DNA of 64,000 bases from Methanosarcina barkeri 3 (GTDB taxonomy: Archaea > Halobacteriota > Methanosarcinia > Methanosarcinales > Methanosarcinaceae). The notes under the pieces are model-generated. The model had not been told where the DNA came from. It worked only from the letters and a program-made list of their open reading frames with translations, and searched no databases. Position 1 is the first letter of the stretch. Every line of letters begins with the position of its first letter. Location: NCBI RefSeq assembly GCF_000970305.1, contig NZ_CP009517.1, positions 2,170,001-2,234,000 on the forward strand. The letters run 5' to 3'. The position numbers and the translations under genes were made by a program. Positions 15,359 through 52,315 of the stretch are shown in pieces.

Positions 15359-15388
15359 TGTTTGTTTTTGCTATTTCGAGGATTTATT

Positions 15389-16537
15389 ATGAAAATTTTA
15401 CAAGTAATTCAGTTTTTTTCTCCTAAGCACGGTGGTTCAGCAACGGTTGCTTATGAGTTGACAAAACAACTGGCGAAAAACGGTCATGAGGTTACAGTAC
15501 TAACTACTGATTTTGAACTGGATTCATGTTTCATTGATCCTTTAAACGGTGTAGAGGTTATTCCTTTTCATTGCGACTTGAATATCGGAGGTCTTTTAAT
15601 CTCTTTTTCAATGAATAAGTATCTAAAAGAAAACATCTCTAAATTTGACATAATCCATATGCATAATTTCCGAACTTATCAAAATATAATTGTTAGTATA
15701 TACGCGAAGAAATACAAAATTCCATATCTTTTGCAAGCACATGGGACCATGCTTCGAATTATTAACAAAAAAGGTTTTAAATATCTTTTCGATTTTGTTT
15801 TTGGATATCCTGTGTTGAAAAATGTGTCAAAAGTAATTGCAGTATCTAATGAGGAGATTGATCAATATCTCGGGATTGGGGTGCCTAAAGAAAAGATAGT
15901 TGTAATCCCGAATGGAATTGATATTGATTCTTTTTACCGATTGCCTGAAAAAGGTTCTTTTAGGGACAAAATGGGAGTCAGGGACAAATATATTGTTTTA
16001 TACTTAGAACGGTTGCATGAAAGAAAAGGCATTTCTTTTTTAATTGAAGCTTACTCAGAATTATTAAAACAAAAAGAAGATGTCGCTTTAGTTTTGGCAG
16101 GACCTGACGATGGTTATCGGGATAAAGCAGAGTTACTAATTCATAAATTTGGTCTAAAAAATAATGTAAAATTTACTGGTTATATTGATACATTTGATAA
16201 ACTTGCAGCTTATGTAGATTGTGATGTCTTGATATATCCTTCTATTCTTGAAATATTTGGGCTTGTGCCATTCGAAGCTATAATGTGTGGAAATCCTGTA
16301 ATTGTGACCGATGACTGTGGGTGTGGAGAGTTTATAAAAAAAGCTAATTGTGGATGCTTAGTAAAATATGGAGACGTAGTTGATTTAAAAAACAAAATGA
16401 AGTTAATTCTTGAAAATCCCGACATTGGAAGCAAACTTGTTGAAAATGGACAAAAATATATTGTAAATAATTTAACCTGGCCACTAATTTGCAAAAACAT
16501 AGAGACCCTTTATGAGAGTTGTATTTCAAAAGTTTGA
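15389..16537 (+). CDS. GT4 glycosyltransferase
   Basis: A 382-residue GT-B retaining glycosyltransferase. The N-terminus MKILQVIQFFSPKHGGSA has the typical glycine-rich loop, then HMHNFRTYQN, AVSNEEIDQYLGIGV, VIPNGIDIDSF, and the C-terminal donor site YPSILEIFGLVPFEAIMCG with the paired Glu residues. The ATG at 15389 is chosen because GAGG lies about 6 nt upstream and it gives the canonical beginning; a TTG at 15362 is less likely. It follows DUF362 closely. The specific sugar is unknown. Confidence 0.93.
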   Translation: MKILQVIQFFSPKHGGSATVAYELTKQLAKNGHEVTVLTTDFELDSCFIDPLNGVEVIPFHCDLNIGGLLISFSMNKYLKENISKFDIIHMHNFRTYQNIIVSIYAKKYKIPYLLQAHGTMLRIINKKGFKYLFDFVFGYPVLKNVSKVIAVSNEEIDQYLGIGVPKEKIVVIPNGIDIDSFYRLPEKGSFRDKMGVRDKYIVLYLERLHERKGISFLIEAYSELLKQKEDVALVLAGPDDGYRDKAELLIHKFGLKNNVKFTGYIDTFDKLAAYVDCDVLIYPSILEIFGLVPFEAIMCGNPVIVTDDCGCGEFIKKANCGCLVKYGDVVDLKNKMKLILENPDIGSKLVENGQKYIVNNLTWPLICKNIETLYESCISKV

Positions 16538-16786: not shown

Positions 16787-17908
16787 ATGGCAACTAAAAG
16801 AAAAAGCATTTGTGTGATCACTTTTCCACCCATGAAAGCAGGGCTCACTCCATTATCAAATCTTATTGATATTTTATCATCTTCTTCTGACGAGATATAT
16901 CTAATCACTGGAAATGATGGTTATTATCATTTCATTGATAACAATAATATTCATCTGTACGGTATATTCCATTCGACAGGTGATGGTTCAGTAAACAGAA
17001 TTAAAAACTATATTTTTACCCAATTTAAAATTGCTCATCTACTTTTAAAAATAATCGACAAGATCGATGTATGTATTTTTTTCTTGGGAGGGGAAATGTT
17101 AGTTTTATCGTTAATACCTGCAAAAGTATTTAAAAAGAAAACAATTACTATGCTTTCCGGATATTCGATAAAATACGAGAAAGGCATTTTATCAAAAGTA
17201 ATTACAAAATTTTGTACTATGAATTTTAATCTGGTAGACAAGATAATATTATACTCTCCACGTCTCATAAGTGAATGGAACTTTGAGAAATATTCCCATA
17301 AAATTTTAATAGCTCCCAGGCATTTTCTGGATTTTTCTAATTTTAAGTTAAATATTGAGCTCAGTCAAAGAAATGATTTCATAGGATATGTAGGTCGTTT
17401 ATCTGAAGAAAAAGGCATCATAAATTTCATAGAGTCTATTCCCCTTATTTTAAAGCAAAAGCCGGATCTGAATATTTTGGTAATAGGTGATGGAGATTTA
17501 AGAAATAATATTGATAAGTATCTTTCCAATAATGGACTTGAAAACAATGTAAAACTTGTTGGATGGAGCTCTCGTGAGGATCTTCCCAAATACTTAAATT
17601 CATTAAAATTGCTAATCATTCCTTCTTATACAGAAGGTCTGCCTAATATTATGTTAGAAGCAATGGCTTGCGGTACACCTGTACTAGCTAAAGGAGTAGG
17701 GGCAATTCCTGACATAATAAGTGATGGAGAAACTGGTTTTATTATGGAAAATAATTCTCCTGAATGCATTGCAAAAAACATTTTTCGTGCTATGGAACAT
17801 CCAGATCTTGAAAACATTGTGAAGAATTCTATTATTCTTGTAAAAAATAACTTTACCTACAAAAAAGCTGTAGAAAGATATTCAGAAATACTTGATAACG
17901 CTAAATAA
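16787..17908 (+). CDS. GT4 glycosyltransferase
   Basis: A 373-residue GT-B glycosyltransferase. The N-terminal half is divergent (CVITFPPMKAGLTPLSNLIDIL). The C-terminal half is classic: FIGYVGRLSEEKGI near 200, LVIGDGDLRNNI, VKLVGWSSREDLPKYL, and SYTEGLPNIMLEAMACGTPVLA with the two donor-binding Glu residues. Start ATG follows AGAAGGAATATAC. Separated by a 250 bp spacer from the previous gene, so it may have its own promoter. Expected to act in the same glycan pathway. Confidence 0.92.
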   Translation: MATKRKSICVITFPPMKAGLTPLSNLIDILSSSSDEIYLITGNDGYYHFIDNNNIHLYGIFHSTGDGSVNRIKNYIFTQFKIAHLLLKIIDKIDVCIFFLGGEMLVLSLIPAKVFKKKTITMLSGYSIKYEKGILSKVITKFCTMNFNLVDKIILYSPRLISEWNFEKYSHKILIAPRHFLDFSNFKLNIELSQRNDFIGYVGRLSEEKGIINFIESIPLILKQKPDLNILVIGDGDLRNNIDKYLSNNGLENNVKLVGWSSREDLPKYLNSLKLLIIPSYTEGLPNIMLEAMACGTPVLAKGVGAIPDIISDGETGFIMENNSPECIAKNIFRAMEHPDLENIVKNSIILVKNNFTYKKAVERYSEILDNAK

Positions 17909-18065: not shown

Positions 18066-19895
18066 ATGAGACATAGATATTTTAATGGGCGGATAAAAGT
18101 GTTCTCCAAAGACAAGTACATTAATACTACCAGATATATAAAAATAGTATCAATATTTGGATTTATAATAATACTATTAGCATTAAATATTATAATTAAC
18201 AGTCATTCTCCTAATGTATACGGTTTTTCAATATACAAAATGTATCCGTGGTATTTCTGGGTCCTTATTACTATGGCAATTTTCATCGGCCAGATAATAT
18301 TAATGTATAATGCAATTTCTAAGTATGAGACTAATACCTGGCACATTGGTTTTTTAATGATAATTATTTCAAACCTAGTTTTATTATTTATGCCAATTAT
18401 CAAAGGTTATTTCATACATGGCAGGGAAGATGTTTTAACTCATGTTGGCTATATGATTGATATTGAAAATAACCATAACATTGGTTCTAACGCTTATCCC
18501 ATGCTTCACATAATAGGTTTTACGCTAAAGTGCTTTTCTGGTATAAGTTATAATGATATTACTATGTTTCTACCCATATTTTATTCGTTATTATATATAT
18601 TTTCGTGGTATATTCTTGGGAAATATGTGTTTAAAAATAAACGTGAAATATTTATAATGCTAGCATTTTCTTCAATACTATTACTTGGCAGTAAAAATAT
18701 TATGCTTAGTCCTAACGGGCAAGCAATTCTTTTTGTCCCTTTCTTTCTTTATATCTTTTTTAAATCGAGATTACCAAAGAAAGCTGTGCCATATTCAATA
18801 CTATTAATTATACTTAGTTTTTTTATAATATTTTCTCATCCTTTAGTCACAATTTTGCTTACAATAACGATTTTATTATCTGATTTCACCATGTATCTTA
18901 ATAATAAGAGCCCTGAAATTAAAATTAAAAAATCAACTAATTTATTATCAATTATGATATGTTCCTTTCTCGTATGGTCTTCATATTTACATATTCTTGC
19001 ATACAGTCTAGAAAACATAATGTATACGTTAATGTCCACTGACGGAGGAAGCTCTGAATTTGGAAGATATCAAACCTCTCTTAGTTCTGTTCACATATCT
19101 CTTTTGGAAATTGTCGGAATGGTACTAAGTATATATGGACCTTACCTCTTATTATCCGTACTCTCTGCAATTTGCATACTATACATAATCGTTTTTAGAA
19201 AAAAAGATAACATAAAGGTGAATTATTACCATAAACTTTCAATTTTAGGGTGGATATTACTAGTATTTTTCTCAATGTTACTATTTATCCTCAATGATCA
19301 GTTTGGTTTCGTAAGAGTATACAGTTATTCAATATTTTTCTCTATTATTTTGATAGCTTATTCAATAAGTATCTTCTTAAGAAGATCTTCGGACAAAAGA
19401 AATAGTAATTTGAAATTCTTAATGGCAATATCTTCAGTTTTGATACTTATTACGGGTTTATCCACATATAGTTTATTTTTATCACCTGCAATTCTAAAAA
19501 TAGATCAACAGACTCCAGAGAGCGAGTTTTCTGCAATGAAAACATTTTATAAAGTAAAAGAGAATTCATACCCGGTACTGGAACGTGGAACAGTAAACTA
19601 TAGGGTTCATAATTCAATTTATGGAGTTTCAGGAAGTAAGAAGAAAGGTATTACTCGTGAGAATCAAGTTATCGATCATTTTGGATACGATAACAATTCT
19701 TCGTTAAGTAATTCTTATAAAAAATCATATCTACTGATTAGTTATATTGGTAGAAACCAGGATCAAAATTTATTGCCAAAATTTCAAGACCGATGGAGTT
19801 TTAATTATAGTGATTTTATGCACCTAGATAATGATGTTGGAGTTACTAAAATTTACTCAGATAAATTTTCGGATGTTTACATTATCAGTCCTTAA
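18066..19895 (+). CDS. Multi-pass membrane protein, GT-C or polymerase-like
   Basis: A 609-residue protein with about 10-12 hydrophobic helices from residue 22 to 480, then a soluble C-terminal domain of about 130 residues, probably outside the membrane. After the third helix there is an acidic loop, HGREDVLTHVGY, followed by YPMLHIIGF; Asp in the first long loop is a hallmark of GT-C enzymes. I do not recognise a named family. A paralogue lies at 62389-64000 with the matching loop (PGVDSWKQ, then YFPVMHIQ) and a similar ending (KIYSDKFSDVYIIS versus KIYDNKDLSAYYIS). Wzy polymerase or lipid-linked-sugar transferase are the two candidate roles; it sits where a polysaccharide locus usually holds its polymerase. 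Confidence 0.75.
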   Translation: MRHRYFNGRIKVFSKDKYINTTRYIKIVSIFGFIIILLALNIIINSHSPNVYGFSIYKMYPWYFWVLITMAIFIGQIILMYNAISKYETNTWHIGFLMIIISNLVLLFMPIIKGYFIHGREDVLTHVGYMIDIENNHNIGSNAYPMLHIIGFTLKCFSGISYNDITMFLPIFYSLLYIFSWYILGKYVFKNKREIFIMLAFSSILLLGSKNIMLSPNGQAILFVPFFLYIFFKSRLPKKAVPYSILLIILSFFIIFSHPLVTILLTITILLSDFTMYLNNKSPEIKIKKSTNLLSIMICSFLVWSSYLHILAYSLENIMYTLMSTDGGSSEFGRYQTSLSSVHISLLEIVGMVLSIYGPYLLLSVLSAICILYIIVFRKKDNIKVNYYHKLSILGWILLVFFSMLLFILNDQFGFVRVYSYSIFFSIILIAYSISIFLRRSSDKRNSNLKFLMAISSVLILITGLSTYSLFLSPAILKIDQQTPESEFSAMKTFYKVKENSYPVLERGTVNYRVHNSIYGVSGSKKKGITRENQVIDHFGYDNNSSLSNSYKKSYLLISYIGRNQDQNLLPKFQDRWSFNYSDFMHLDNDVGVTKIYSDKFSDVYIISP

Positions 19896-19991: not shown

Positions 19992-21170
19992 ATGAAAGTG
20001 TTGTACTTAATCTCAACAATGGAACCACACTCGGGTAGGGGAGGACATTATTATAGTTTAAGAACTACTGCTGAAGAAATGAGCAAAAAGTTGGATTGTG
20101 CTATAGTTGTTATCGGAAAAAGAGAATCACCGGTTATAAATCAGTCGAAAGTAAAAATATATAATTTGACCTATAAAAAGATAAATACTATTAAAGTAAT
20201 TAAAGATCTGAAAAACATTATTGATATTGAGCGCCCTCAAGTTATTCACAGTTTTGATGAAGATACTTTCTTTTTTGGAAGTTTAATCAGTAATATTTTA
20301 AAAAAACCATATATTCATACGAAATGTGGAGGCCCAAATTCAAGGATAGCTTTTCCAAAAGTGAATAACTTAATATTGTTTTCTCAAGAAGATGTTAGGT
20401 TTTACCAGTCTTCAAGAAGATTTAAAAAAACAAATCTATTTTTTATTCCAAATCGAATCAGAGAAATTCCTTCAGATATTTTAAGAATAAAAAACATAAA
20501 GTTATCAGTAGATTGCAATGAATCAAAAACATTTTTAATAATTTCCAGGCTTGAAGAATACAAAAAGAACGACATACTACAAGCAATAAATCTTGTAAAA
20601 AAATTAAATTCTGATGGGATAAAAACTAAATTAATTATTATTGGAGCTCTCCAAGATGTAAATGTTGGTAAAGAAATAAAAGAGAATGTGGATAATAATA
20701 TCTACCTGTTCACAGATGATAAGTACGCAATTAACGCGAGTCAGCTAATTGATGTTGCAGATTTTGTTATTGGTGGCGGAAGAAGCTTTATGGAGGCTGC
20801 ATTGAAGGGAAAGATTATGCTGTGCCCCTTAAAGAATTCAAATTATCCTTTATTAATTACAGAAGAAAATTTTCAAAATGCTTTTGATCAAAACTTTTCA
20901 AGTAGATTAACTATTGATAATTTTGATCCAGAAGATAATTATAAACAAATTATTCAAGCGTTAATTGATGAAGAATACGCAGATAATATAATTAGTTTTA
21001 TAAAATCAGTTTCAAGTGAACATTTTGAAATCAGCAGTCAACTCAATAGATATTGTAAGATTTATAACGAAGCAAAATATAAAATGCATTTTAGTATATT
21101 CGACATGTTAACTCAATATTTCAGAATGGTTTATTGCAATGAATTAATCCCAAAACTTAAAACTACTTGA
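19992..21170 (+). CDS. Glycosyltransferase, GT-B type
   Basis: A 392-residue protein beginning MKVLYLISTMEPHSGRGGHYYSL, a GT-B N-terminal glycine-rich loop, with VIHSFDEDTFFFGSL, KCGGPNSRIAFPK, FLIISRLEEYKKNDILQAI and IIGALQDVNVGKEI. The C-terminal donor site is degenerate: IGGGRSFMEAALKGKIMLCPL keeps one Glu of the usual ExxxxxE. AAGGGATC before the ATG is a good ribosome-binding site. It is the last gene of the plus-strand series and faces the flippase at 21464. Substrate unknown. Confidence 0.8.
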   Translation: MKVLYLISTMEPHSGRGGHYYSLRTTAEEMSKKLDCAIVVIGKRESPVINQSKVKIYNLTYKKINTIKVIKDLKNIIDIERPQVIHSFDEDTFFFGSLISNILKKPYIHTKCGGPNSRIAFPKVNNLILFSQEDVRFYQSSRRFKKTNLFFIPNRIREIPSDILRIKNIKLSVDCNESKTFLIISRLEEYKKNDILQAINLVKKLNSDGIKTKLIIIGALQDVNVGKEIKENVDNNIYLFTDDKYAINASQLIDVADFVIGGGRSFMEAALKGKIMLCPLKNSNYPLLITEENFQNAFDQNFSSRLTIDNFDPEDNYKQIIQALIDEEYADNIISFIKSVSSEHFEISSQLNRYCKIYNEAKYKMHFSIFDMLTQYFRMVYCNELIPKLKTT

Positions 21171-21463: not shown

Positions 21464-22771
21464 TTAGCGCTTAATCGGTAACGTATGAATCAATCCTAAA
21501 ATTAAATCGATATCACTTTTCTTACAAATAAAGATATCACTTAGACTCAATTGAGTAATTTTCATATAGTAATACAAAATAGACACTGATGCAAGCGTAT
21601 AACTAATTGTCGAAGCAAAAGCAGCACCACAACCTCCAAAATCAGGCACTAAAATTATATTAAGCATTATATTGACCAAAACTGCTGGTAAAAATGCTGT
21701 TATAGTAACACCGGGTTTCCCTCTACCGGCCAGATCCATATTAATAATTTTGAAGAAACTCATCATAACTATTCCAGGTAGTAAAATTTTTAGCATTTTG
21801 ACACTTGGAGTGTACTCACTTCCATACAAAAAAGGAATTATATATTCACTTGAAGAATATAAAAATATTGACCCAATGAGTATAACAGGGAAGACAATCC
21901 TGATCATTTTTGCAATATCTTGTGAAAATTTATCGGAATTTTTTGCGTTTGCACTATATGAAAAGATAACTAGTCCAAAAGCAGTCGGTAGCTGCCATAA
22001 CAATTCAGCAAAACCTACTCCTATAGTGTATTGACCTATTTCTGTAACATTACTTAAATGTTCAAGTATGATTACATCCACTCTATAATTAAGATTTAAA
22101 ATGAACAGTGAAAGTGCATAAATAGATCCTAAAGAAATCATTTTTTTAATTAGTTCAGGCACGTAACATATTTTTAAAGAATATTCTCTATTAATCGATA
22201 ACAACGCATATAGAGCAAGCACAATATTGGAAATCAGAGTAGCCAAAACTGCACCTACTATGTATAATTTGATAAAAAATACTAAGAAGATTATGAGTAC
22301 GAAATTAATGATAGGTACTAGATACATAAATTTGTTGAATTTATTTATTCGTTGTTTCCCAATTAAAATCCCGGTAAAATAGTTAATAGTCAAATTTGCG
22401 GGAATTGTAAATGACGTAAGTAATATTAAAATTAGGCTATAATCTGAATTTTGAGTATATGAGATTATTGCAACTGAAGTTAGAACTCCAATTATGCTTG
22501 ACAAAATAAGTAATAATAATATTACACCTACAACCTCCGATTCTGAATACTTTTTCTTACCAAGATAATAAACAGTTGCTTGGCGCGTTCCCATACTTAA
22601 AAGGCTAATCATGATTGTAGGATAAACCAAAAGAGCCGTAAAGGCTCCTCTTCCAGCAGGTCCAAGCCATCTCGCAAGTAGTACTCCTGATACGAAACCT
22701 ATAACTAATGTCAATATCTGAGTGCCAAAAACAGATATACCATCTTTTACAAAACTGTAGTTCTTTAACAT
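21464..22771 (-). CDS. Wzx-type flippase (second)
   Basis: A 435-residue multi-pass protein of the polysaccharide flippase family. The N-terminus has GISVFGTQILTLVIGFVSG and ARWLGPAGRGAFTALLVYP, the signature region of Wzx-like proteins, followed by about 12 helices. It starts 25 bp after the acyltransferase stop and is the last gene of the murA-murB-acyltransferase-flippase series, making it the natural exporter for whatever lipid-linked glycan that series builds. GTAGGG lies about 8 nt before the ATG. Confidence 0.9.
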   Translation of the reverse strand: MLKNYSFVKDGISVFGTQILTLVIGFVSGVLLARWLGPAGRGAFTALLVYPTIMISLLSMGTRQATVYYLGKKKYSESEVVGVILLLLILSSIIGVLTSVAIISYTQNSDYSLILILLTSFTIPANLTINYFTGILIGKQRINKFNKFMYLVPIINFVLIIFLVFFIKLYIVGAVLATLISNIVLALYALLSINREYSLKICYVPELIKKMISLGSIYALSLFILNLNYRVDVIILEHLSNVTEIGQYTIGVGFAELLWQLPTAFGLVIFSYSANAKNSDKFSQDIAKMIRIVFPVILIGSIFLYSSSEYIIPFLYGSEYTPSVKMLKILLPGIVMMSFFKIINMDLAGRGKPGVTITAFLPAVLVNIMLNIILVPDFGGCGAAFASTISYTLASVSILYYYMKITQLSLSDIFICKKSDIDLILGLIHTLPIKR

Positions 22772-22795: not shown

Positions 22796-23335
22796 TTATT
22801 TTGCAGGAATTCCTACTGCGTTTGAGTTTTTAGGTACATCGGTCAGTACAACTGAATTTGCACCAATTACAGCATTTTCATGAACAGTTAGTCCACCTAT
22901 AATTTTTGCCCCGGAATAAATTATTGCTCCTTGTTTTATTATGGGGTAGGATTTTGGTTCGTCTTTATGCCCATGGCTTCCAAATGTAGTTTGTTGAAAA
23001 ATCGTAACTTCATCTTCAATAATAACTCCCGCTCCAATTATTACGCCTGAAGGATGAGCAAACTTTACTCTATTACCTAACTTAGCTCTATAATCGATTT
23101 CATTGCCACCAAGAATATATTGTCGATATTTAATAAGCGGAAGAGCTCTTCTAGTCATTTTTGATTTTAGATAACAATATCTAGAGAGACGATACCAAAA
23201 TATCAGTTTAAAAGAAACACTCAAAGAAAAGATCACAATCTTACTCAATAAGTTTTTGCCACCGTAGAAAAGTAAGTCTTGAGATATATCTTTTAAGCAG
23301 CTACTAAAACTGTATTCAGGATCATCTTTATTCAA
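22796..23335 (-). CDS. CysE-like serine acetyltransferase-family protein
   Basis: A 179-residue left-handed beta-helix acyltransferase closest in look to the serine-acetyltransferase branch: GVIIGAGVIIEDEVTIFQQTTFGSHG, AIIYSGAKIIGGLTVHENAVIGANSVVLTDVP and the ending SNAVGIPAK (read as separate motifs). The N-terminal 60 residues are helical. In glycan loci such proteins acetylate sugars rather than serine. It starts with TTG, overlapping the murB stop by 8 bp, so it is translationally coupled. Role in modifying the MurA/MurB product is inference. Confidence 0.85.
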   Translation of the reverse strand: MNKDDPEYSFSSCLKDISQDLLFYGGKNLLSKIVIFSLSVSFKLIFWYRLSRYCYLKSKMTRRALPLIKYRQYILGGNEIDYRAKLGNRVKFAHPSGVIIGAGVIIEDEVTIFQQTTFGSHGHKDEPKSYPIIKQGAIIYSGAKIIGGLTVHENAVIGANSVVLTDVPKNSNAVGIPAK

Positions 23336-24284
23336 TTATTCCAACCTCATGCAACGATTTAAGATCTCCCATCTCCCCTACATACTTTATTTCGCTTTCT
23401 AGATAAAGTCCGTAACGTTGATATACAATTTTTCGGACGTACTGGACAATAGAAATCACGTCTTTAGCTGTAGCATTTCCCAAATTTACTATAAAATTGG
23501 CATGTTTTTCCGAAATTTGAGCACCACCTACTTGATAACCTTTTAAACCTGCTTCTTCAATTAACTTTCCTGGAGGTGCAAAAGTGTCATTTACAACCGG
23601 ATTACTTAAAAAAACAGATCCACAATTGGGATAATTAAGTGGAAACTTGTTTTTACGATTATCCAGTATGTTTCTCATTTCGAACTTTATGTTTTCTTCT
23701 TCCCTAGTTTCACATTCTAGCTCAATTTTACAAATTATATAATTTGAATCCTGAAACACTGATTTTCTATAAGAAAAGTCACATTCACTTTTGGAGAAAG
23801 ATATTAAATTATAATTTTTGTCAATAACCCATATTTTTTTGACAATATCTCCTATGCATTTTCCACCGCTCCCTCCATTCATGAAAACAAGTCCACCAAG
23901 GGTGCCTGGTATTCCAATGGCGTGTTCAAGACCTGATAAACCATTATCGGACAATATTTTTGCAAATTTTGGAGTCCAGATACCTGCCTCCGCGCAAGCT
24001 CTTTTACCCTTAATAGTATATTTAGAAAAGTTTTTACCCATTTTTATTATAATTCCACGAAAACCTTCATCAGAAAAAAGTAAATTTGTTCCATTCCCTA
24101 TAACCACTGTAGGAATTTTCATTAAGTCAGCATATTGTAATGTTTCGAGTATCTGTTCGACAGTATATGGTTCAACTAGAACATCTACAGGACCACCTAT
24201 ACGCCAGCTACTGTGTTTTGAAAGAGGTTCTTTTAAATAAATATCTCCTACATTTTTATTGATAAAACTGCTTACTTTATCCAT
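23328..24284 (-). CDS. murB: UDP-N-acetylenolpyruvylglucosamine reductase (MurB)
   Basis: FAD-dependent reductase converting UDP-GlcNAc-enolpyruvate to UDP-N-acetylmuramate with NADPH. The FAD-binding motifs are present: SSWRIGGPVDVLVEP near 25-39, IGNGTNLLFSDEGFRG near 62-77, and GIPGTLGGLVFMNGGSGG near 124-141. The active-site YRKS is at about 172-175, the proton-donor Ser in NCGSVF near 223, and the C-terminal Glu in YLESEI near 296-298. The PGKLIEEAGLKG and GGAQISEKHANFIVN blocks and the shorter length (318) fit the type II MurB of Gram-positives. It overlaps the murA stop by 8 bp. Archaea are not known to make murein, so this is a strong candidate for lateral transfer put to use in surface glycan synthesis. 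Confidence 0.95.
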   Translation of the reverse strand: MDKVSSFINKNVGDIYLKEPLSKHSSWRIGGPVDVLVEPYTVEQILETLQYADLMKIPTVVIGNGTNLLFSDEGFRGIIIKMGKNFSKYTIKGKRACAEAGIWTPKFAKILSDNGLSGLEHAIGIPGTLGGLVFMNGGSGGKCIGDIVKKIWVIDKNYNLISFSKSECDFSYRKSVFQDSNYIICKIELECETREEENIKFEMRNILDNRKNKFPLNYPNCGSVFLSNPVVNDTFAPPGKLIEEAGLKGYQVGGAQISEKHANFIVNLGNATAKDVISIVQYVRKIVYQRYGLYLESEIKYVGEMGDLKSLHEVGIIE

Positions 24285-25533
24285 ATCTCACATTTCCCCC
24301 CAGTGAAATTAATTTTTCCATAAAATTGTCATAGCCTCTTTCAATCTGCCAGGCATCTGAGATCCGAGTTTCACCGTTTGCCACTAATCCGGCTAACGCT
24401 AATGCGATACCAGCTCGGAGATCAAGAGCTCTTACTTGAGCACCATTAAGTTGATTTCCACCGATGATTTCCAGTATGTTACCGTTGATATTATATTTCA
24501 AACCCATTTTAGCCAGTTCACTTGCATACCCATATCTACCAGGGAAACGTAAGTCAACAATTTTTGAACTTCCTTTTGCACAAGCACCATAAACTGCAAA
24601 AAGAGGCTGAACATCAGATTTGATTTCTGGATATGGACCAGTACTAATCTCCACGGGATAAGGTGTCCCACCTCTTACAATAAGACTATTATCTCCAATA
24701 TAGTACTTCGCTCCGCTTTGACGAAGATGTATTAGCGTAACTTCAATATCTTTGAAGGGAAAACCAATAATCTCAATATCTCCACCTGTAATCACTGAAG
24801 CAATTAGCCATGTGACCGCTTCAATATTATCAGCAATTACAGAATGTCTAGCTCCAAGTAATTTTTTTACTCCAGTAATTTTTATATGCTCCTGGCCAAA
24901 AACCTCAATCTTCGCGCCCATCTCATTAAGAAAATGTGCCAAATCAAGAATTTCGGGTTGAATATGAGGATTCCAAACTCTAGTTACACCTTCAGCTAAA
25001 GATCCACAGATCATTGCATTTTCAGTTGCTCCTGTTGAACGGATAGGTAAAAAAATGTCAGCTCCTTTTAGCCCGTTTTCTGCTTTAGCACAAAGCATAT
25101 TATCTTCAATCCAAACTTTTGCTCCCATGTTTCTGAGGAGCATCTCGTGTAGATCAAATTTTCTTTCTCCAAGATTACAACCTCCTGGAAGAGGAACCTT
25201 TGCTTCACCTATACGACTTACCAGTGCACCTAATATAAGTAAAGTATTACGAATTGAACGCTTGTTCCAATTAAGAATTTTCAAAGGATCTTTTTCCTCA
25301 TAAATGGTTATTTTTTCATCCTCTACAATGCATTTTTTTCCAAGAGCTTCCAACATACCGACATGAATTTGAGCATCAAGTAACTTAGAGGGATAATTTG
25401 TCAGCTCTATTTTTTCATCTGTTAGCAGTGAAGCTGCAAGAAGCCTTAAAGCACTATTTTTTGCACCACTTACTTTTACTTTCCCTTGAAGCCTGGATGG
25501 TCTGACTATATATTCACAGCTTTCTTGATTCAT
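24277..25533 (-). CDS. murA: UDP-N-acetylglucosamine 1-carboxyvinyltransferase (MurA)
   Basis: Transfers enolpyruvate from PEP to the 3-OH of UDP-GlcNAc. All expected catalytic positions are visible: KN at about 25-26 in GAKNSAL, Arg near 95 in IRNTLLILGAL, the PEP-binding Cys near 119 in PLPGGCNLGER with Arg 124, Asp near 307 in EIKSDVQPLF, Arg near 333 in PGRYGY, Arg near 373 in DLRAGIALALAG and Arg near 399 in ERGYDNF. The PGGC loop and ERGY end separate it from the EPSP synthase AroA. Length 418 is typical. AAGGGA precedes the ATG. It is the first gene of a coupled murA-murB-acyltransferase series, with a 265 bp gap to the upstream SDR gene. Confidence 0.96.
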   Translation of the reverse strand: MNQESCEYIVRPSRLQGKVKVSGAKNSALRLLAASLLTDEKIELTNYPSKLLDAQIHVGMLEALGKKCIVEDEKITIYEEKDPLKILNWNKRSIRNTLLILGALVSRIGEAKVPLPGGCNLGERKFDLHEMLLRNMGAKVWIEDNMLCAKAENGLKGADIFLPIRSTGATENAMICGSLAEGVTRVWNPHIQPEILDLAHFLNEMGAKIEVFGQEHIKITGVKKLLGARHSVIADNIEAVTWLIASVITGGDIEIIGFPFKDIEVTLIHLRQSGAKYYIGDNSLIVRGGTPYPVEISTGPYPEIKSDVQPLFAVYGACAKGSSKIVDLRFPGRYGYASELAKMGLKYNINGNILEIIGGNQLNGAQVRALDLRAGIALALAGLVANGETRISDAWQIERGYDNFMEKLISLGGNVRYG

Positions 25534-25798: not shown

Positions 25799-26725
25799 TT
25801 AGTCCATGAACCATTCTGCTACTGTCTTGAGTTCATCCTTAAAATTACCAATAGGACTATACCCGAATTCTGTAGCTTTTGATATATCTGCTAACGAATG
25901 CTTAATATCTCCTGGTCTTAAGTTTGTGTGTTTTGCTTTGATATCTTTCCCAATAATTTCATTAATGTAATCGGCTAATTGATTAATTGTAATTCTTCTA
26001 CCGCACGCGATATTGAAAACTCCGGTTTTCTCAGACTCGCAGGAAAGAATATTTGCGTCAACAACGTTTTTGACAAAAGTAAAATCCCTGCTTTGTTCTC
26101 CATCGCCATATATCACAGGGCTTTCATCATTCAAAATTGCAGTTATAAATTTTGGAATCACGGCAGCGTACTGAGAATTCGGATCCTGCCTTGGACCAAA
26201 AACGTTGAAGTATCTTAAGCTGACTGTCGGAAGGTTATAAAGATCCTGAAAAACCTTACAGTACATTTCTCCGGTTGCTTTTGTAATTGCATATGGAGAC
26301 ATCGGGTTTATGGGCATATCTTCTCTTTTTGGGAGAGTTGGCGTATCGCCGTACACTGAAGAGGAAGATGAAAATACTACTTTTTTAACTCCAGCATCTC
26401 TTGCAGCTATAAGAACATTCAACGTTCCTGTGACATTAGAGTTATTTGAGTTAAAAGGATCTTTCACACTTCTTGGAACACTGGGAATTGCTGCAAGGTG
26501 GAAGACATAATCCTTGTCTTTGAAAATTTCTGTCAAGTTAAGGTCTACTATACTGTCTTTTATTACAGTTAGATTTTTGTGATTCAGTAGATGCCTTATA
26601 TTCTCAATCTTACCTGTAGATTCATTATCAATAATTGTTACTTCATTATCCTCAAGTAGCCTCTCAGCAAGATGGGAACCTATGAAACCCATACCACCTG
26701 TGACCACTACATTTTTAGTTTTCAA
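25799..26725 (-). CDS. UDP-sugar 4-epimerase-like SDR
   Basis: Extended SDR acting on nucleotide sugars, about 308 residues when started at the TTG at 26725. That start is chosen because GAGGG lies 5-6 nt upstream and it gives MKTKNVVVTGGMGFIGSH; a longer frame reaching 26905 would overlap the preceding dehydrogenase gene in another frame. The active-site YAITKATGE and the SSSSSVYGDTPTLP block with the Ser of the triad are present, as is LRYFNVFGPRQDPNSQYA. It resembles UDP-GlcNAc/UDP-GalNAc 4-epimerases (WbpP/GalE group). It begins 31 bp after the dehydrogenase stop, so the two probably form an operon making a uronic-acid-type or galacto-configured sugar nucleotide. Confidence 0.92.
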   Translation of the reverse strand: MKTKNVVVTGGMGFIGSHLAERLLEDNEVTIIDNESTGKIENIRHLLNHKNLTVIKDSIVDLNLTEIFKDKDYVFHLAAIPSVPRSVKDPFNSNNSNVTGTLNVLIAARDAGVKKVVFSSSSSVYGDTPTLPKREDMPINPMSPYAITKATGEMYCKVFQDLYNLPTVSLRYFNVFGPRQDPNSQYAAVIPKFITAILNDESPVIYGDGEQSRDFTFVKNVVDANILSCESEKTGVFNIACGRRITINQLADYINEIIGKDIKAKHTNLRPGDIKHSLADISKATEFGYSPIGNFKDELKTVAEWFMD

Positions 26726-26756
26726 ATAATCCCTCTGTGAAACAATAATTGTAAAG

Positions 26757-28499
26757 TTAGGAATTCTGTTGCAATTTTCTTTTCTGAACTTCTTTTTTAA
26801 TTTGCTGAATATGGCCTCTTCCAAGGGCTTTAACTTCACAGCCAAGTTCAAAATATTTTCTGATGTTTTCATCCGATAATATTCCAAAACAGTCAATAAC
26901 TGCAATAGGCCCGCCTGCCATCTTTACGATAGTTTCCGGCTCAAAGTTGAGATACTCCTTATGCGGAACTGCAAGGATCAGGGCTTCTATATCGTTAATT
27001 GCCGTTGAAAAATCACTTTCGATTTTTAACTCTGCCAGACCGTCCTGGTTTCTAAAGAAACGTTTCCAGGACTGGCCAGACGCCGGATATGTATCCTGAT
27101 TTTCCATCTCGTACCAGTGATCAACGTACGGATCATGAACACGCATTTCAGCGCCCATTTCAGTCAGTTTCCTGACTACAATTTCACTTCCACTGTATCT
27201 AGTGTCGCCTACATCCTGCCTGTAACTGGCTCCGCAAACGAGAACATCTGCTCCGGCTATATAGTGGCCCATATTCCGAAGAGCATCTCGCGTAAGTTCG
27301 GCTACGTGAAGAGCTCTTGTGTCGTTTACATCAATTGCTGTGGGAGTGATCTTGAATACCTCATCTCCATCTTCAAAGCCCAGAATATGCTTATAAGACC
27401 AGTAACCCAGACCACCGTCTTTTGGAAGGCAATAACCTCCAATCCCTGGTCCCGGGAAGATTATATTACTGTGAGTCGGACGCATTTTGATTGCATTAAT
27501 AACTTTTATGAGATCGATACCGTTTCTTTCCGAAAAAAGACTCCATTCATTAAGGAAAGCGAGTATCGTTGCACGGTAGGAATTCTCAACAATTTTTGCA
27601 GTTTCAGACTCAATAGGCCTATCCATTATAGTCAGAGGGTAATCTTTAGTGTTTATTACCTCAGAAAGGAATTTTTCGACCTTTACTCTTGCTTCGTCAG
27701 TACAACCTGCACAGACTCTCCAGAAATCGCGTACACTTGCCACATAATCTCTTCCAGGCATAACACGTTCAAAACTATGTGCAAGTAAAGGAGTTGAATT
27801 AATTCCACGCTTCTGGAAGGCTTTTTTCAGGAGAGGAAGAGCAACAAACTCGGTCGTCCCTGGAGCAACAGTAGTTTCTATTAGCACAAGGCAATCGGGG
27901 CAGATATTTTCTCCGATTATTTTCATGGAAGCTTCAAGTGCTGCCATATCAGCTTCACCGGTTCTGACATTTCCAAGTTCGCACTTTACATAATCGCACT
28001 GGATATCTACCACAACAACATCAGCAAGTTTCAGGCATTCGTTTGTGTAAGTAGCTACAAGTGTTTTTGTTTCAAGAACACAGCGTTTTATAATCTCATC
28101 TACTTCTTTATCTTCGGATTTCACAGGAGACTGTCCTCTGTTGAGCAGAGGTATTTTCCAGTAACTACGAGTACTTGGTCTTTGACAACCGATTACAAAT
28201 TTACTATAATTACCGTTTTCGTCTTTCGTATCTGCAATAATCGCAGCCATTACAGCTCCAACAAACCCGACACCCATCACAACAACAATCTCTTTTCCTT
28301 CTTCACGGGCTTTGTCCACAAGATCTTTAATTCTTTTAAATTCTTCTGCATATTCATCAGATTCAGGTAAAGGAAATTCTTCTCCTTCAGGACTAACCGA
28401 GAAATTTATGCTATTAGGAGTAAGTTCAATGGACTTATTTTTTTCACCCTGAAGGCTTTCCTGAGAAGAAAAACAATTTTTTATTTGGGAAGACATCAC
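26757..28499 (-). CDS. UDP-sugar dehydrogenase (UDPGDH/MviM-like superfamily)
   Basis: Oxidises the C6 of a UDP-sugar to a carboxylate using NAD. The Rossmann motif VVVMGVGFVG is near 72-81, ETTVAPGTTE near 208, KIVENSYRAT near 302, and the catalytic Cys is near 357 in GIGGYCLPKD. The last third has the UDP-binding domain (VLVCGASYRQDVGDTRYSG). At 580 residues it is much longer than the usual 420-440: there is a 65-residue N-terminal extension and an insertion around residues 90-135. Substrate (UDP-Glc, UDP-GlcNAc or UDP-ManNAc) cannot be fixed by eye; with the 2-epimerase at 1162 a UDP-ManNAcA route is possible, and with the SDR a galacto-uronic route. Confidence 0.92.
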   Translation of the reverse strand: MMSSQIKNCFSSQESLQGEKNKSIELTPNSINFSVSPEGEEFPLPESDEYAEEFKRIKDLVDKAREEGKEIVVVMGVGFVGAVMAAIIADTKDENGNYSKFVIGCQRPSTRSYWKIPLLNRGQSPVKSEDKEVDEIIKRCVLETKTLVATYTNECLKLADVVVVDIQCDYVKCELGNVRTGEADMAALEASMKIIGENICPDCLVLIETTVAPGTTEFVALPLLKKAFQKRGINSTPLLAHSFERVMPGRDYVASVRDFWRVCAGCTDEARVKVEKFLSEVINTKDYPLTIMDRPIESETAKIVENSYRATILAFLNEWSLFSERNGIDLIKVINAIKMRPTHSNIIFPGPGIGGYCLPKDGGLGYWSYKHILGFEDGDEVFKITPTAIDVNDTRALHVAELTRDALRNMGHYIAGADVLVCGASYRQDVGDTRYSGSEIVVRKLTEMGAEMRVHDPYVDHWYEMENQDTYPASGQSWKRFFRNQDGLAELKIESDFSTAINDIEALILAVPHKEYLNFEPETIVKMAGGPIAVIDCFGILSDENIRKYFELGCEVKALGRGHIQQIKKEVQKRKLQQNS

Positions 28500-29319: not shown

Positions 29320-30357
29320 ATGATCTTTCAGTTATATTCAGAAATAAAAGACAAAATTACTTTAATTGATGGTATTAGTATTATTTTTATTGTGCTCTTT
29401 CACGAGTTAGGTGGGATAAATCGGTCAGATTCTATATTTTTGATAAGATATCTCGCCACATTTGGTTTAGTTTTGTTTACATTCTCATCTGGACTTAAGA
29501 TGGGAATAAATCATTCTGCAGAAATCAACGACAAATCATTTATAAGTAAGTATTTTGTGAAGAGATTCACGCGACTATATAAAGCATACATTGGGTATAC
29601 ACTGCTGGCTTTTGTTCCTCTATATTGCATTAGTTATATATCAATCAATTATCTTAACCTAAACTTTGAAAATATTATAAATTTTTGGAATAATTTAAAT
29701 ATAGACGGTTTACTTAAAACTCTAATTGGTCATAATATTGTTTCTTATCAATTGGGGTATCTAATTGTATTAATTTTAATAACAACTGTTTGTTTTGCAA
29801 TTATATATTACTTTCAGATTAATACTTTATTTTATTTCATAATACCATTACTGGCATTTGATGTTATTTATAAGGACACTTTAAAACAGTACCCTAGTAT
29901 TTTGTTTAATGTCATGATGTATATGCCAGCTTATATTTTTGGGATAGCTTATGGCTACAAACAATTAGAACAAAATAAACTGTCAGTTTCGTATATCTGT
30001 TCAATAACTTTTGTTGCAATATTTGTTATTTCCATAGTTTACCCACAATCGTTTGCACATAAATATGCTATCTTATTATATGGAATAACATTTCCACCAT
30101 TTATGATGTTATTTTCTAGAATACTACTAAATTTCAAATATTTAAAAGAATTATTACTACTATGTGGGAAGTATTCATTCCAAATTTATTTATTTCATTG
30201 GCCAATAATTTTACCTTTGATAAGCAAATTAACTATTAATATTTTCAAAATTAATAATTTTTTCACTCCATATGGTGTAACAGTCCTTGCAATAATTATC
30301 TGTGTTTACGTATACAAAGTAAGTAAAAAATTAAAGTTAAATCAGATATTTGAGTAA
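29320..30357 (+). CDS. Acyltransferase 3 family membrane protein
   Basis: A 345-residue integral membrane acyltransferase (OafA/NodX type) with about 10 helices. The first helix is followed by the family His in IIFIVLFHELGG near 28, and LFTFSSGLKMG near 60 takes the place of the usual SGF region. KYSFQIYLFHWPIIL near 289 matches the conserved late motif. It likely O-acetylates an exported glycan using acyl donor from the cytoplasm. It stands alone on the plus strand. No ribosome-binding site is obvious, so the transcript may be leaderless. Confidence 0.82.
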   Translation: MIFQLYSEIKDKITLIDGISIIFIVLFHELGGINRSDSIFLIRYLATFGLVLFTFSSGLKMGINHSAEINDKSFISKYFVKRFTRLYKAYIGYTLLAFVPLYCISYISINYLNLNFENIINFWNNLNIDGLLKTLIGHNIVSYQLGYLIVLILITTVCFAIIYYFQINTLFYFIIPLLAFDVIYKDTLKQYPSILFNVMMYMPAYIFGIAYGYKQLEQNKLSVSYICSITFVAIFVISIVYPQSFAHKYAILLYGITFPPFMMLFSRILLNFKYLKELLLLCGKYSFQIYLFHWPIILPLISKLTINIFKINNFFTPYGVTVLAIIICVYVYKVSKKLKLNQIFE

Positions 30358-31004: not shown

Positions 31005-31037
31005 TCAAGTTAATTGAATCTTTTGAACTGCTATACT
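30972..31037 (-). repeat. 33 bp tandem duplication including a stop codon
   Basis: The last ten codons plus TGA of the GT-C-like gene (31005-31037) are repeated directly downstream (30972-31004) with few changes; both units end in a TGA. The coding product is unaffected because the first stop is intact. Confidence 0.8.
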
Positions 31038-33257
31038 CAGTTCCCTGTTGTCATCTTTACTATTTAACTCTGGAATTTCACTTGGGCTTTCAGACCCTTC
31101 TGGCACATGCAGAAGGATGAGATTATCGCCTTTCTTCAAGCTAATTGGGATAGACATACTGGAAAAATCTGTAGTTATAGCTTGTCTGCCTTGAAGATCT
31201 TCGTTATTGTAAACCTCCAGTGTTCTCGGACTGTAGAAACTGAACGCCTGAATATTTAATGTAGCGTTTCTGACGCTATCTGAGTGAATTAATATTGTAG
31301 CGTTGTCTGATATCCATCTGGTAGGTTTTCCACTTATATTTTCCAGCTGATTCCATCCGTCTTTTAAAATCATAAAAGACTTCAAAGGCTCTTTTTTGAC
31401 ATGGTACACGATTAGAGAATCTTTTTCATATATTTTTCTTTCTGCGTTTAATGTTTTCTGTATCAGTTTCTCAATAAAGTCAATATCTCCATCATTCATA
31501 TAGTTTGTATGCAAAATAATATATGATATGTTATAATAATTTAAAATGGATGTTCCGACTTCATTTATATCCTGGTCCAGAATATCATCAGTAAAAGGCT
31601 GCAAATAGGTTAATTCCCTTACTACAGGTGTCTTTAGTTCAAAATCTCTCGCAGTAGACGGATATCTAGCAGCCCAATTACCTACAACAGGTTTTCCATG
31701 TATTGTCTGGTAATAAATGATGGTTGAACCTGCCAAATAATCTTTGGTTGCAGGAATTTCAAGCAGTGCGTAGTTATCTTTATCCTGTGAAATCTCTTTG
31801 TAAAATGAGGGTTCATCAACAGGTGATAAAGATACAGGAACTGCCAGATATTCGAAGATTATCAAACCGGTTATTACAATTGCAGACACCTTTTTATTAA
31901 TCCGGTTAGATTTTAGCAGTTCTGTGGTTCCATAACCCATCAAAACTGCGAATGAGAGAGAAGCAATTACAAAAAATCTACCGGTTGTCCGGCAGTTGTC
32001 CAGAAATGGGATCACATAATACAAAACTAAATACGGAAGAGGAACAGTAGTATTAAACTCTGTAAATGAGGTCTTACCATTTACGTGAAGAAGTGGACCA
32101 AGACTGATTAGCGAAAAAGACAGGGCAGCTATTAGCCAGAACTTTACGTTTTTGTTTCCCTTCAATCTATGAGCTGCAAATAAAGAGAGAAAAATCACAG
32201 TGTATCCGATAAACATCGTGTTTTCACTGATATTTCCTGAAAAATTGCTGTAAATGTTTGTAGTAATATTTCCAAAAACAGGATGCAAAACCGAAGGAAG
32301 AAAAAAGCTCAGTAAATCAGCTGAATACATAACCGCTTCAGAGGAGCCTAATTTTAAAAAGTTGTTACCGGACGTTGCTGTTAGAATGTTTTCCAGCGTG
32401 AGAGGTATTATACCTATAAAAGAAACAAACCCAAATAAGCTATATTTGCAGAAAGTTTGTTTCAGGATCTCCTTAGAACTTGTTATCTCTTTAGAATTTG
32501 TTATTTTTTTAGAATTTGTTATCACTTTAGAATTTACTTTTTTTTCCTTTAAGGAAATATAAATTTCATATGTGAATAGTAGCATCACGAAAATTCCCAT
32601 AAATACCATATATTGAAGGTCGCTCATGGCTACTAGAATAAAGAATATCCCCGCAAAAAAACTGTTTCGAACTCCGCCTTCTTTAAACATTTTCATTAAA
32701 TAAAGAGCGCAGAAAGGTATCCATTCAATACTGGTTGCCCCAAAATGGCCAAGTGCATGTACAAAATGATAAGGTGAGAAAGCAAACACAATTCCTGCAA
32801 TGAAAGAAGAAATTCTGTCATTAGTCAGATACCTTACAAGCAAATATGCACCGTATGCCCCAAAAATAAATGAGAATAACCATAGTATGGTGTATACGAC
32901 GTGAATTTCCATTATACTTGATAAAATGTATGAGAGGATTTGATTAAATGCCGATTGAAAGGGTGAAGCTGGGATTCCATCCGGATAAAATATTAAATAA
33001 TCGTGTGTTAATTTTGTTAGTCCAGGGTTAAATATCGCTACTGGCATATACCAGAGTATTCTTATCCATTGAAATGCGTCACCGCCTCCCGGAATATGAT
33101 TGCGTATATTGAAAACCACAGGATAAGTGAGTATAAAAGTTAATAAAGTATACAGTGTTAAGACACTGGCATGCTCTTTCAAACTTTTTTTGGAAAAATT
33201 CAATATTTGGCTATTAATTAAGTGTTTTTTTAGCCATTTCGGTGTACCCGATATCAT
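31005..33257 (-). CDS. Large GT-C-like membrane glycosyltransferase
   Basis: About 750 residues with roughly 12 membrane helices over the first 480 residues and a soluble C-terminal domain of about 260 residues. The first outer loop carries HIPGGGDAFQWIRILWYM, with the acidic residue expected of a GT-C enzyme using polyprenyl-phosphate sugar. The FSPYHFVHALGHFGA loop is typical of archaeal and bacterial GT-C/YfhO-like proteins. The ATG at 33257 is preferred over that at 33269 because AGAGGAAC lies just before it. The minus-strand GtrB-like GT2 immediately upstream (33859-34809) could supply the lipid-linked sugar. Exact donor and acceptor are unknown. Confidence 0.8.
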   Translation of the reverse strand: MISGTPKWLKKHLINSQILNFSKKSLKEHASVLTLYTLLTFILTYPVVFNIRNHIPGGGDAFQWIRILWYMPVAIFNPGLTKLTHDYLIFYPDGIPASPFQSAFNQILSYILSSIMEIHVVYTILWLFSFIFGAYGAYLLVRYLTNDRISSFIAGIVFAFSPYHFVHALGHFGATSIEWIPFCALYLMKMFKEGGVRNSFFAGIFFILVAMSDLQYMVFMGIFVMLLFTYEIYISLKEKKVNSKVITNSKKITNSKEITSSKEILKQTFCKYSLFGFVSFIGIIPLTLENILTATSGNNFLKLGSSEAVMYSADLLSFFLPSVLHPVFGNITTNIYSNFSGNISENTMFIGYTVIFLSLFAAHRLKGNKNVKFWLIAALSFSLISLGPLLHVNGKTSFTEFNTTVPLPYLVLYYVIPFLDNCRTTGRFFVIASLSFAVLMGYGTTELLKSNRINKKVSAIVITGLIIFEYLAVPVSLSPVDEPSFYKEISQDKDNYALLEIPATKDYLAGSTIIYYQTIHGKPVVGNWAARYPSTARDFELKTPVVRELTYLQPFTDDILDQDINEVGTSILNYYNISYIILHTNYMNDGDIDFIEKLIQKTLNAERKIYEKDSLIVYHVKKEPLKSFMILKDGWNQLENISGKPTRWISDNATILIHSDSVRNATLNIQAFSFYSPRTLEVYNNEDLQGRQAITTDFSSMSIPISLKKGDNLILLHVPEGSESPSEIPELNSKDDNRELSIAVQKIQLT
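32473..32536 (-). repeat. In-frame 21 bp tandem repeat inside GT-C gene
   Basis: Three to four copies of a 21 bp unit encode KVITNSKKITNSKEITSSKE in a cytoplasmic loop following a KEKK run. Each unit adds seven residues (K-x-I-T-N-S-K pattern), so copy-number change would alter the loop length without a frameshift. Confidence 0.8.
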
Positions 33258-33269
33258 TGTTCCTCTCAT

Positions 33270-51331: not shown

Positions 51332-52240
51332 ATGTTCGGCTTGACAGGATTTATACATCTGATTAATTGTATAATTTTCAACATAGTGATTATACTCGTT
51401 TTAACGAAAAAGCTGCCGCTGAAGAGAATGGTCCGTAAATCTAGAATTTTGTTTTGGATCATATTAGCCAGCAATATCTTTTCAGCTACCATTCAGTTTT
51501 TCTGCCTAATAAACCCAGATTCAAACATATGGTACCAGTTAGGTGCCGATTGCCTGGGCATCATAGGACAGAGTACACTCCTGATAGGAATTGTGTGGAT
51601 GAAATTGATAGCTAAACCGAGTCCAAAACCGATGAAAATTTTGGCACTTGGAGCCCATCCAGATGACATAGAGATCGCCTGTGGAGGATCTCTCGCAAAG
51701 CTTTCCGATGCAGGGCACACTATAGTGGGCTTGATCGCAAGTGGTGGGGAATGTGGGGGCAATGGTTCATCTAGGCGTAAAGAAGCAATGAAAGGCGCTG
51801 ATTTCTTAGGTCTAAATAAGATTGAAATTATGGATTTTCCTGATACTAGACTGGATCAGTTTGTCTTAGAGATTAGCAAACAAATCGAAGTAATCGTAAC
51901 CGAGTTGAAACCTGATATAGTATTTACACACTCAATTCATGATATACATCAGGATCATAGAGCGGTTCACTATGCAACACTGCGTGCTTGTCGCAACCTG
52001 AGCACGATATTATGCTATGAAAGCCCTTCTATTACTCAGTACTTCCAGCCAAATGTTTTTGTAAATATCGAACAGTATATAGATATCAAAATAGAAAGTA
52101 TCAGGGAACATGGGGATCAAAACAAAAAAAGCTATGTACAGCCAGAGCAGGTCTATGGAAAAGCCATCTTCCGAGGTACTCAAGCAAAAGTCAAACAAGC
52201 AGAAGGTTTTGAGGCAATTCGGATTAATTTACCAATTTAA
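51332..52240 (+). CDS. Membrane-anchored PIG-L family deacetylase
   Basis: A 302-residue zinc-dependent N-deacetylase of the PIG-L/LmbE family. Three hydrophobic segments (about 5-27, 40-62 and 70-90) form an N-terminal membrane anchor. The metal-binding motif GAHPDDIEIACGG is near 108, with the third ligand in HDIHQDHRAV near 202. Expected to remove acetyl groups from GlcNAc-type sugars on lipid carriers or polymer. It leads a plus-strand series with an ATP-grasp ligase and a processive GT2. It is the intact counterpart of the fragment at 46596-47010. Confidence 0.92.
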   Translation: MFGLTGFIHLINCIIFNIVIILVLTKKLPLKRMVRKSRILFWIILASNIFSATIQFFCLINPDSNIWYQLGADCLGIIGQSTLLIGIVWMKLIAKPSPKPMKILALGAHPDDIEIACGGSLAKLSDAGHTIVGLIASGGECGGNGSSRRKEAMKGADFLGLNKIEIMDFPDTRLDQFVLEISKQIEVIVTELKPDIVFTHSIHDIHQDHRAVHYATLRACRNLSTILCYESPSITQYFQPNVFVNIEQYIDIKIESIREHGDQNKKSYVQPEQVYGKAIFRGTQAKVKQAEGFEAIRINLPI

Positions 52241-52315
52241 TTATATCTGTGATGATATGAAATAAACAATTGTAAATTTGAAATGACACATCATAAATTG
52301 GGCAATAGGGATTAT

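Follow-up and report, generated by a model that had tools for sequence, protein, structure and literature searches.

A MurA/MurB pair of Methanosarcina that probably serves a surface polysaccharide and belongs to a branch shared with bacterial plasmids

MurA (EC 2.5.1.7) and MurB (EC 1.3.1.98) are the enzymes of canonical murein synthesis, with the paralogues MurAA, MurAB and MurAC in Bacillota, and muramic acid is commonly treated as a bacterial hallmark. We know of no MurA/MurB step in the pseudomurein pathway of archaea. That pathway resembles the case described here in that murein-like enzymes of bacterial origin occur in archaea, and it works with N-acetyltalosaminuronic acid and with ligases of the Mur type (PMC11915815). 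According to a recent survey, archaea lack MurA (PMC11588093). Outside murein, MurNAc occurs in the capsule of Vibrio vulnificus ATCC 27562 (PMC7247339) and in the lipooligosaccharide of Psychrobacter arcticus (PMC4515632), so that lactyl-sugar chemistry has precedent. In these bacterial glycans, as in the pathway proposed below, MurNAc is a polysaccharide residue without the murein peptide; there it presumably comes from the murein UDP-MurNAc pool, and the V. vulnificus capsule repeat is linked to serine. A MurA-like fold outside murein synthesis is also found in NikO, an enolpyruvyl transferase for a nucleoside antibiotic that acts on UMP (PMC6801904), but its identity to the protein studied here is only about 26% in the fold match. 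The capsule genes of Methanosarcina are still reported as unknown (PMC12369344, PMC4582637), and methanochondroitin is described as containing GlcA and GalNAc only (PMC12369344). In the open-access literature we found no archaeal precedent for MurNAc-type glycan chemistry, and none of the papers found reports a lactyl-ether sugar on the Methanosarcina surface.

The window, which is the whole stretch of 64,000 nucleotides that was analysed, is part of a single closed 4.56-Mb Methanosarcina chromosome (one contig, 99.99% complete). A sequence-only reading had proposed that it carries overlapping murA and murB genes for catalytically complete enzymes. Both open reading frames are indeed intact, and they overlap by exactly 8 bp (ATGGATAA). 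A UDP-HexNAc dehydrogenase/4-epimerase module lies on one side of the genes and a Wzx flippase on the other (Table 1).

Table 1. Features of the murAB locus in the window.
Feature	Coordinates	Strand	Evidence and remarks
GT4 glycosyltransferase	15362..16537	+	Pfam Glycos_transf_1
GT4 glycosyltransferase	16787..17908	+	Pfam Glycos_transf_1; kept in 5/5 murAB loci
GT4-like glycosyltransferase	19992..21170	+	In 5/5 murAB loci; not seen in four compared murAB-less loci
Wzx/MurJ-type polysaccharide flippase	21464..22771	-	Pfam Polysacc_synt 55 bits, MurJ 34 bits
Left-handed beta-helix acyltransferase, serine acetyltransferase/EpsC-related	22796..23335	-	EpsC 122 bits, below its cut-off; 8 bp overlap with murB
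murB-like FAD reductase, 318 aa	23328..24284	-	PRK13905 315 bits; TIGR00179 240 bits; 8 bp overlap with murA
murA-like UDP-sugar enolpyruvyl transferase, polysaccharide-associated MurA subfamily, 418 aa	24277..25533	-	Pfam EPSP_synthase 254 bits
WbpP-type UDP-HexNAc 4-epimerase	25799..26905	-	Closest solved relative 6dnt, 375 bits
UDP-HexNAc 6-dehydrogenase	26757..28499	-	Closest solved relative 3g79, 147 bits
Acyltransferase family 3 membrane protein	29320..30357	+	Pfam Acyl_transf_3 81 bits; kept in five loci

The true start of the epimerase is probably about 150 bases inside the listed frame. Its solved relative 6dnt is a UDP-GlcNAc 4-epimerase that was crystallised with UDP-MurNAc, and 3g79 bears the title NDP-N-acetyl-D-galactosaminuronic acid dehydrogenase. 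The family 3 acyltransferase could O-acylate the glycan, and two large membrane proteins (18066-19895 and 31005-33269), which have no Pfam match, are possible Wzy-type polymerases. The beta-helix acyltransferase gene is truncated or decayed in two of the five related genomes (G298 and M. spelaei); its product is 34% identical to that of the gene directly preceding murA in Qingshengfaniella. Elsewhere in the window, on the plus strand at 51332-54381, lies a set consisting of a PIG-L deacetylase, an ATP-grasp protein and a GT2, of which the ATP-grasp protein is possibly an amide-forming enzyme in a glycan-rich region.

Window MurA scored 397 bits with the NCBIfam subfamily model PRK09369, above the cut-off of 297, whereas the score of 375.3 bits with the murA equivalog model TIGR01072 fell short of the cut-off of 392.7. 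It is therefore filed as a divergent subfamily: by its sequence a recognisable but divergent MurA and not the murein equivalog. In an alignment with E. coli MurA all ten residues compared are identical, with K22/N23/R91/C115/R120/D305/R331/D369/R371/R397 of E. coli corresponding to K25/N26/R95/C119/R124/D307/R333/D371/R373/R399; these include the seven residues listed in the sequence-only reading. The AlphaFold model (pLDDT 89.8) has the inside-out alpha/beta barrel of MurA and matches MurA crystal structures with a TM score of about 0.94, with AroA scoring lower. Window MurB exceeds the PRK13905 cut-off of 259 and contains both the FAD_binding_4 and MurB_C domains. The FAD motifs, Arg173, Ser223 and Glu298 are retained, and the FAD loops, YRKS, the Ser of CGSVF and the late Glu are all present as described earlier. 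The pair is thus like canonical MurA/MurB in fold, catalytic residues, substrate class and two-step pairing, and unlike it in falling into a separate clade, in an altered pocket, in the lack of Mur ligases and in its location in a glycan locus.

The sequence-only reading had suggested placing both proteins in family trees, and these separate them from the cell-wall enzymes. In the MurA tree ten subfamily members split from 20 canonical MurAs with support 100/100, the branch between the two groups being 1.89 changes per column long, and all three MurA copies of Aneurinibacillus are on the canonical side. Identity of window MurA is 57-65% to a haloarchaeal MurA and to the plasmid MurAs of Rhizobium gallicum, R. 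etli 8C-3, Agrobacterium sp. MA01 and Qingshengfaniella alkalisoli, as against 30-40% to canonical MurAs. The plasmid pairs share the diagnostic residues and an adjoining murB with the window pair, but their hosts are bacteria and not archaea. Such hosts would be expected to make murein with a canonical MurA and MurB of their own. None of the papers found describes a function for the plasmid pairs. In the MurB tree the Methanosarcina proteins form a clade with the alphaproteobacterial plasmid MurBs, Haematobacter included (support 100/99), in which changes at G137, S139, K142 and H121 are fixed; the haloarchaeal MurB is more canonical and falls outside this clade.

Every subfamily member has murB next to murA, and most pairs lie within polysaccharide genes. 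The order is murA-murB-GT2-flippase on the Rhizobium plasmids, acyltransferase-murA-murB-GT2 in Qingshengfaniella, and dehydrogenase-epimerase-(two genes)-murB-murA-O-antigen ligase in Agrobacterium MA01. Plasmid pOT1-6 of Haematobacter massiliensis has the order dehydrogenase-epimerase-two transferases-murA-murB, with a very divergent MurA that lies outside the 57-65% range. This MurA was left out of the final tree; when it was included, its long branch fell beside the canonical side. The haloarchaeal MurA groups with Rhizobium MurA (91/82), but a tree holding the archaeal MurAs together was not rejected (AU p 0.165), and the archaeal genes may come from one transfer or two. The bacterial distribution of the subfamily covers plasmid members only. 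At E <= 1e-105, a search without a positive control genome gave no subfamily member in samples of 369, 283 and 296 genomes from three bacterial phyla, namely those of a Proteobacteria MAG, a cyanobacterium and a Bacteroidia MAG, with Alphaproteobacteria outside the sample. Viral contigs contained no subfamily relative, and the MurA matches in a phage collection were at the canonical level, with up to 39% identity. Taken on sequence and gene order, window MurA is a member of a separate subfamily and not a stray cell-wall MurA, and this subfamily appears to be a polysaccharide-associated MurA/MurB branch that spread between bacteria and euryarchaea.

The subfamily differs from canonical MurA at positions attributed to the nucleotide-sugar pocket. 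The position of E. coli Val327 is Arg in all ten clade MurAs (Arg329 in the window) and in Haematobacter MurA, and V, I or L in each of 25 canonical MurAs. We take Val327 to line the sugar pocket in MurA-UDP-GlcNAc structures; a search of the literature for this contact found nothing. Further changes fixed in the ten clade MurAs are V161 to Arg165, V163 to Thr167, A186 to His190, R232 to Asn236 and T304S. The alignments thus suggest a subfamily in which the catalytic chemistry is kept and the nucleotide-sugar pocket is altered, and a positively charged Arg at the 327 position would be compatible with an acceptor that is acidic or differs in some other way.

A search of Methanosarcina genomes for murA and murB, which had been put forward earlier as a check, recovered the subfamily MurA at the same locus in 5 of 31 genomes, M. 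spelaei included, with 83-100% identity. In the Halobacteria class it was present in one of 391 genomes, the host of which looks like a haloarchaeon from the character of its proteins; the other listed matches in this class, being weak, with about 30% identity, or partial, were taken as AroA. Of 295 genomes in the phylum, two had MurB_C. A 38% MurA in a Methanosarcina MAG (G302) was set aside as contamination: this canonical MurA lies on a 9-kb contig (contig 167, L124) with MurC, MurD and a transposase-like open reading frame, and this contig is likely bacterial contamination of the bin.

All five murAB loci of Methanosarcina have the order dehydrogenase, one or two SDR epimerases, murA, murB, the hexapeptide protein related to serine acetyltransferase, Wzx flippase and convergent glycosyltransferases. 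Both genes are under purifying selection, with dN/dS values over the five genomes of 0.10-0.18 for murA and 0.16-0.27 for murB. Four Methanosarcina genomes without murAB retain the dehydrogenase (three of the four with its epimerase), followed by different flippases and transferases. This recurrence of the module in front of other export and transfer genes is the behaviour of a serotype-like locus. The region contains a flippase, several glycosyltransferases and nucleotide-sugar genes, as in Wzx-type surface polysaccharide loci, and from the gene content that varies between relatives it is a variable, serotype-like surface-polysaccharide locus.

Some variation was also seen within the murAB loci. 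An additional SDR epimerase with about 41% identity to the first one lies between that epimerase and murA in M. spelaei and G316 (L004:5737-6705, L122:11322-12257). It is missing from the window, and the 265-bp gap before murA showed no remnant of the additional M. spelaei gene. Window murA is a mosaic, with the 5′ two thirds like G298 and the last 200-300 bp nearly identical to M. spelaei; unlike this mosaic, murB and the dehydrogenase have M. spelaei as nearest overall relative. The differing kinship would point to allelic exchange at the locus.

In the pathway that we propose, a UDP-N-acetylhexosamine would receive the enolpyruvyl group from PEP through MurA, and the flavin of the coupled MurB would then reduce this enolpyruvyl ether, so that a lactyl ether is formed, either UDP-MurNAc or a closely related sugar. 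As Mur ligases that could attach a peptide are absent, the nucleotide sugar would serve as a single sugar unit. One of the glycosyltransferases in the locus, for which the GT4-like protein is a candidate, would add the lactyl sugar to a lipid-linked oligosaccharide, the Wzx-type flippase would export the lipid-linked unit, and the surface polysaccharide that finally carries the sugar as an acidic residue would be one of several alternatives in Methanosarcina. We put the probability that MurA and MurB make UDP-MurNAc or a relative for a surface polysaccharide at about 0.75. Intact genes and residues, the fold, the gene order, the type of locus, selection, the lack of a peptide pathway and the shared subfamily support this reading, from which we infer the substrate, product, transferase and final polymer. 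Judged by the sequences, the product would most likely be a UDP-linked 3-O-lactyl amino sugar, either MurNAc or a close relative. The earlier proposal that an archaeal surface polysaccharide contains a lactyl-ether amino sugar therefore stands as the best reading; its naming of muramic acid holds less firmly, since the pocket changes cast doubt on UDP-GlcNAc as the exact acceptor.

These pocket changes also lead to a sub-case of the main reading, in which the pathway is the same but the acceptor is not UDP-GlcNAc and the product is a new 3-O-lactyl sugar. UDP-N-acetylhexosaminuronic acid or UDP-GalNAc, supplied by the neighbouring dehydrogenase and epimerase, would be the candidate acceptors. 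The Arg at the Val327 position and the further fixed changes in both clades agree with it, as do a UDP-sugar dehydrogenase and epimerase adjoining murAB in Methanosarcina, Agrobacterium MA01 and Haematobacter. We nevertheless consider both this sub-case and its acceptors rather unlikely, as the sugar-binding role of position 327 is a presumed one, the module is likewise present in Methanosarcina genomes that lack murAB and was not observed next to murAB in Qingshengfaniella, and the haloarchaeon pairs the same type of MurA with a more canonical MurB. A related and tentative possibility is a pair of enolpyruvyl transferase and reductase that is dedicated to a lactyl-ether nucleotide sugar different from UDP-MurNAc, such as a 3-O-lactyl HexNAc uronic acid, and that spread between bacterial plasmids and euryarchaeal chromosomes. 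No description of such a sugar in archaea was found in the literature.

Use of the pair for a murein- or pseudomurein-like peptide polymer would agree with the MurA/MurB product being the first committed murein precursor, but is scarcely credible given the gene content. The absence of MurC-F and MraY from the window that was pointed out earlier extends to the whole genome in profile searches. The Mur ligase domain (Mur_ligase_M) gave a single weak match genome-wide, adjoining what reads as the gene for a sirohydrochlorin chelatase of the cfbA type; from this neighbourhood and established knowledge the protein is most likely CfbE of coenzyme F430 synthesis. The MraY/WecA family (PF00953) gave zero matches genome-wide, whereas the MraY search was positive in Methanocaldococcus and ten bacterial genomes, and the Mur ligase search also in the control bacteria and Methanocaldococcus. 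A lone CfbE-type ligase and no MraY/WecA protein mean neither murein nor pseudomurein, and such a pathway is excluded as far as the searched families show; a peptide polymer is refuted as far as gene content can do so. A plant MurA that makes EPSP (PMC11588093) raises the option that MurA acts as an EPSP synthase in the shikimate pathway, or else moonlights, and that MurB is incidental. This is very improbable because the genome has a separate AroA-like match (C1:3089142-3090395), murA and murB are paired in all lineages seen, and the locus is a glycan locus. We give equally little credence to the view that the genes are contaminants or came by a recent transfer and are decaying without a function. 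The patchy occurrence (5/31 Methanosarcina and 1/391 Halobacteria-class genomes) would suit it, but the closed archaeal chromosome, on which a bacterial origin of the contig fails, the same locus and order in five genomes, dN/dS values of 0.10-0.27 and intact residues argue against it; the 38% MurA of G302 does look like a contaminant, but is a separate case.

Contrary to the statement of the survey, methanogens carry a conserved and selected murA/murB pair. The main reading makes a prediction on the surface chemistry of Methanosarcina that is specific and can be tested, points to a branch of MurA that apparently serves polysaccharides in bacteria too, and advises caution where muramic acid is taken as a strictly bacterial biomarker. 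The target of fosfomycin in MurA is a Cys. This residue is kept in window MurA, and fosfomycin sensitivity of the enzyme would offer an uncommon tool for work on an archaeon.

Two observations concern the bacterial and haloarchaeal relatives. The GT2 directly after murB in the haloarchaeon, Qingshengfaniella and Rhizobium (L084:2821-3834, L085:12270-13241, L087:12256-13272) is about 34% identical between these lineages and has the shared motif IA(V/L/I)(Q/H)G(A/S)GD. It is a candidate lactyl-sugar transferase in these three, but was rejected as the dedicated transferase here as it has no close match in this genome. The 13-kb plasmid pAES7 of Paracoccus aestuarii encodes an 845-aa fusion of a polysaccharide pyruvyl transferase with a complete MurB (FAD_binding_4 and MurB_C; L171:2492-5029), which suggests another route to lactyl-modified glycans.
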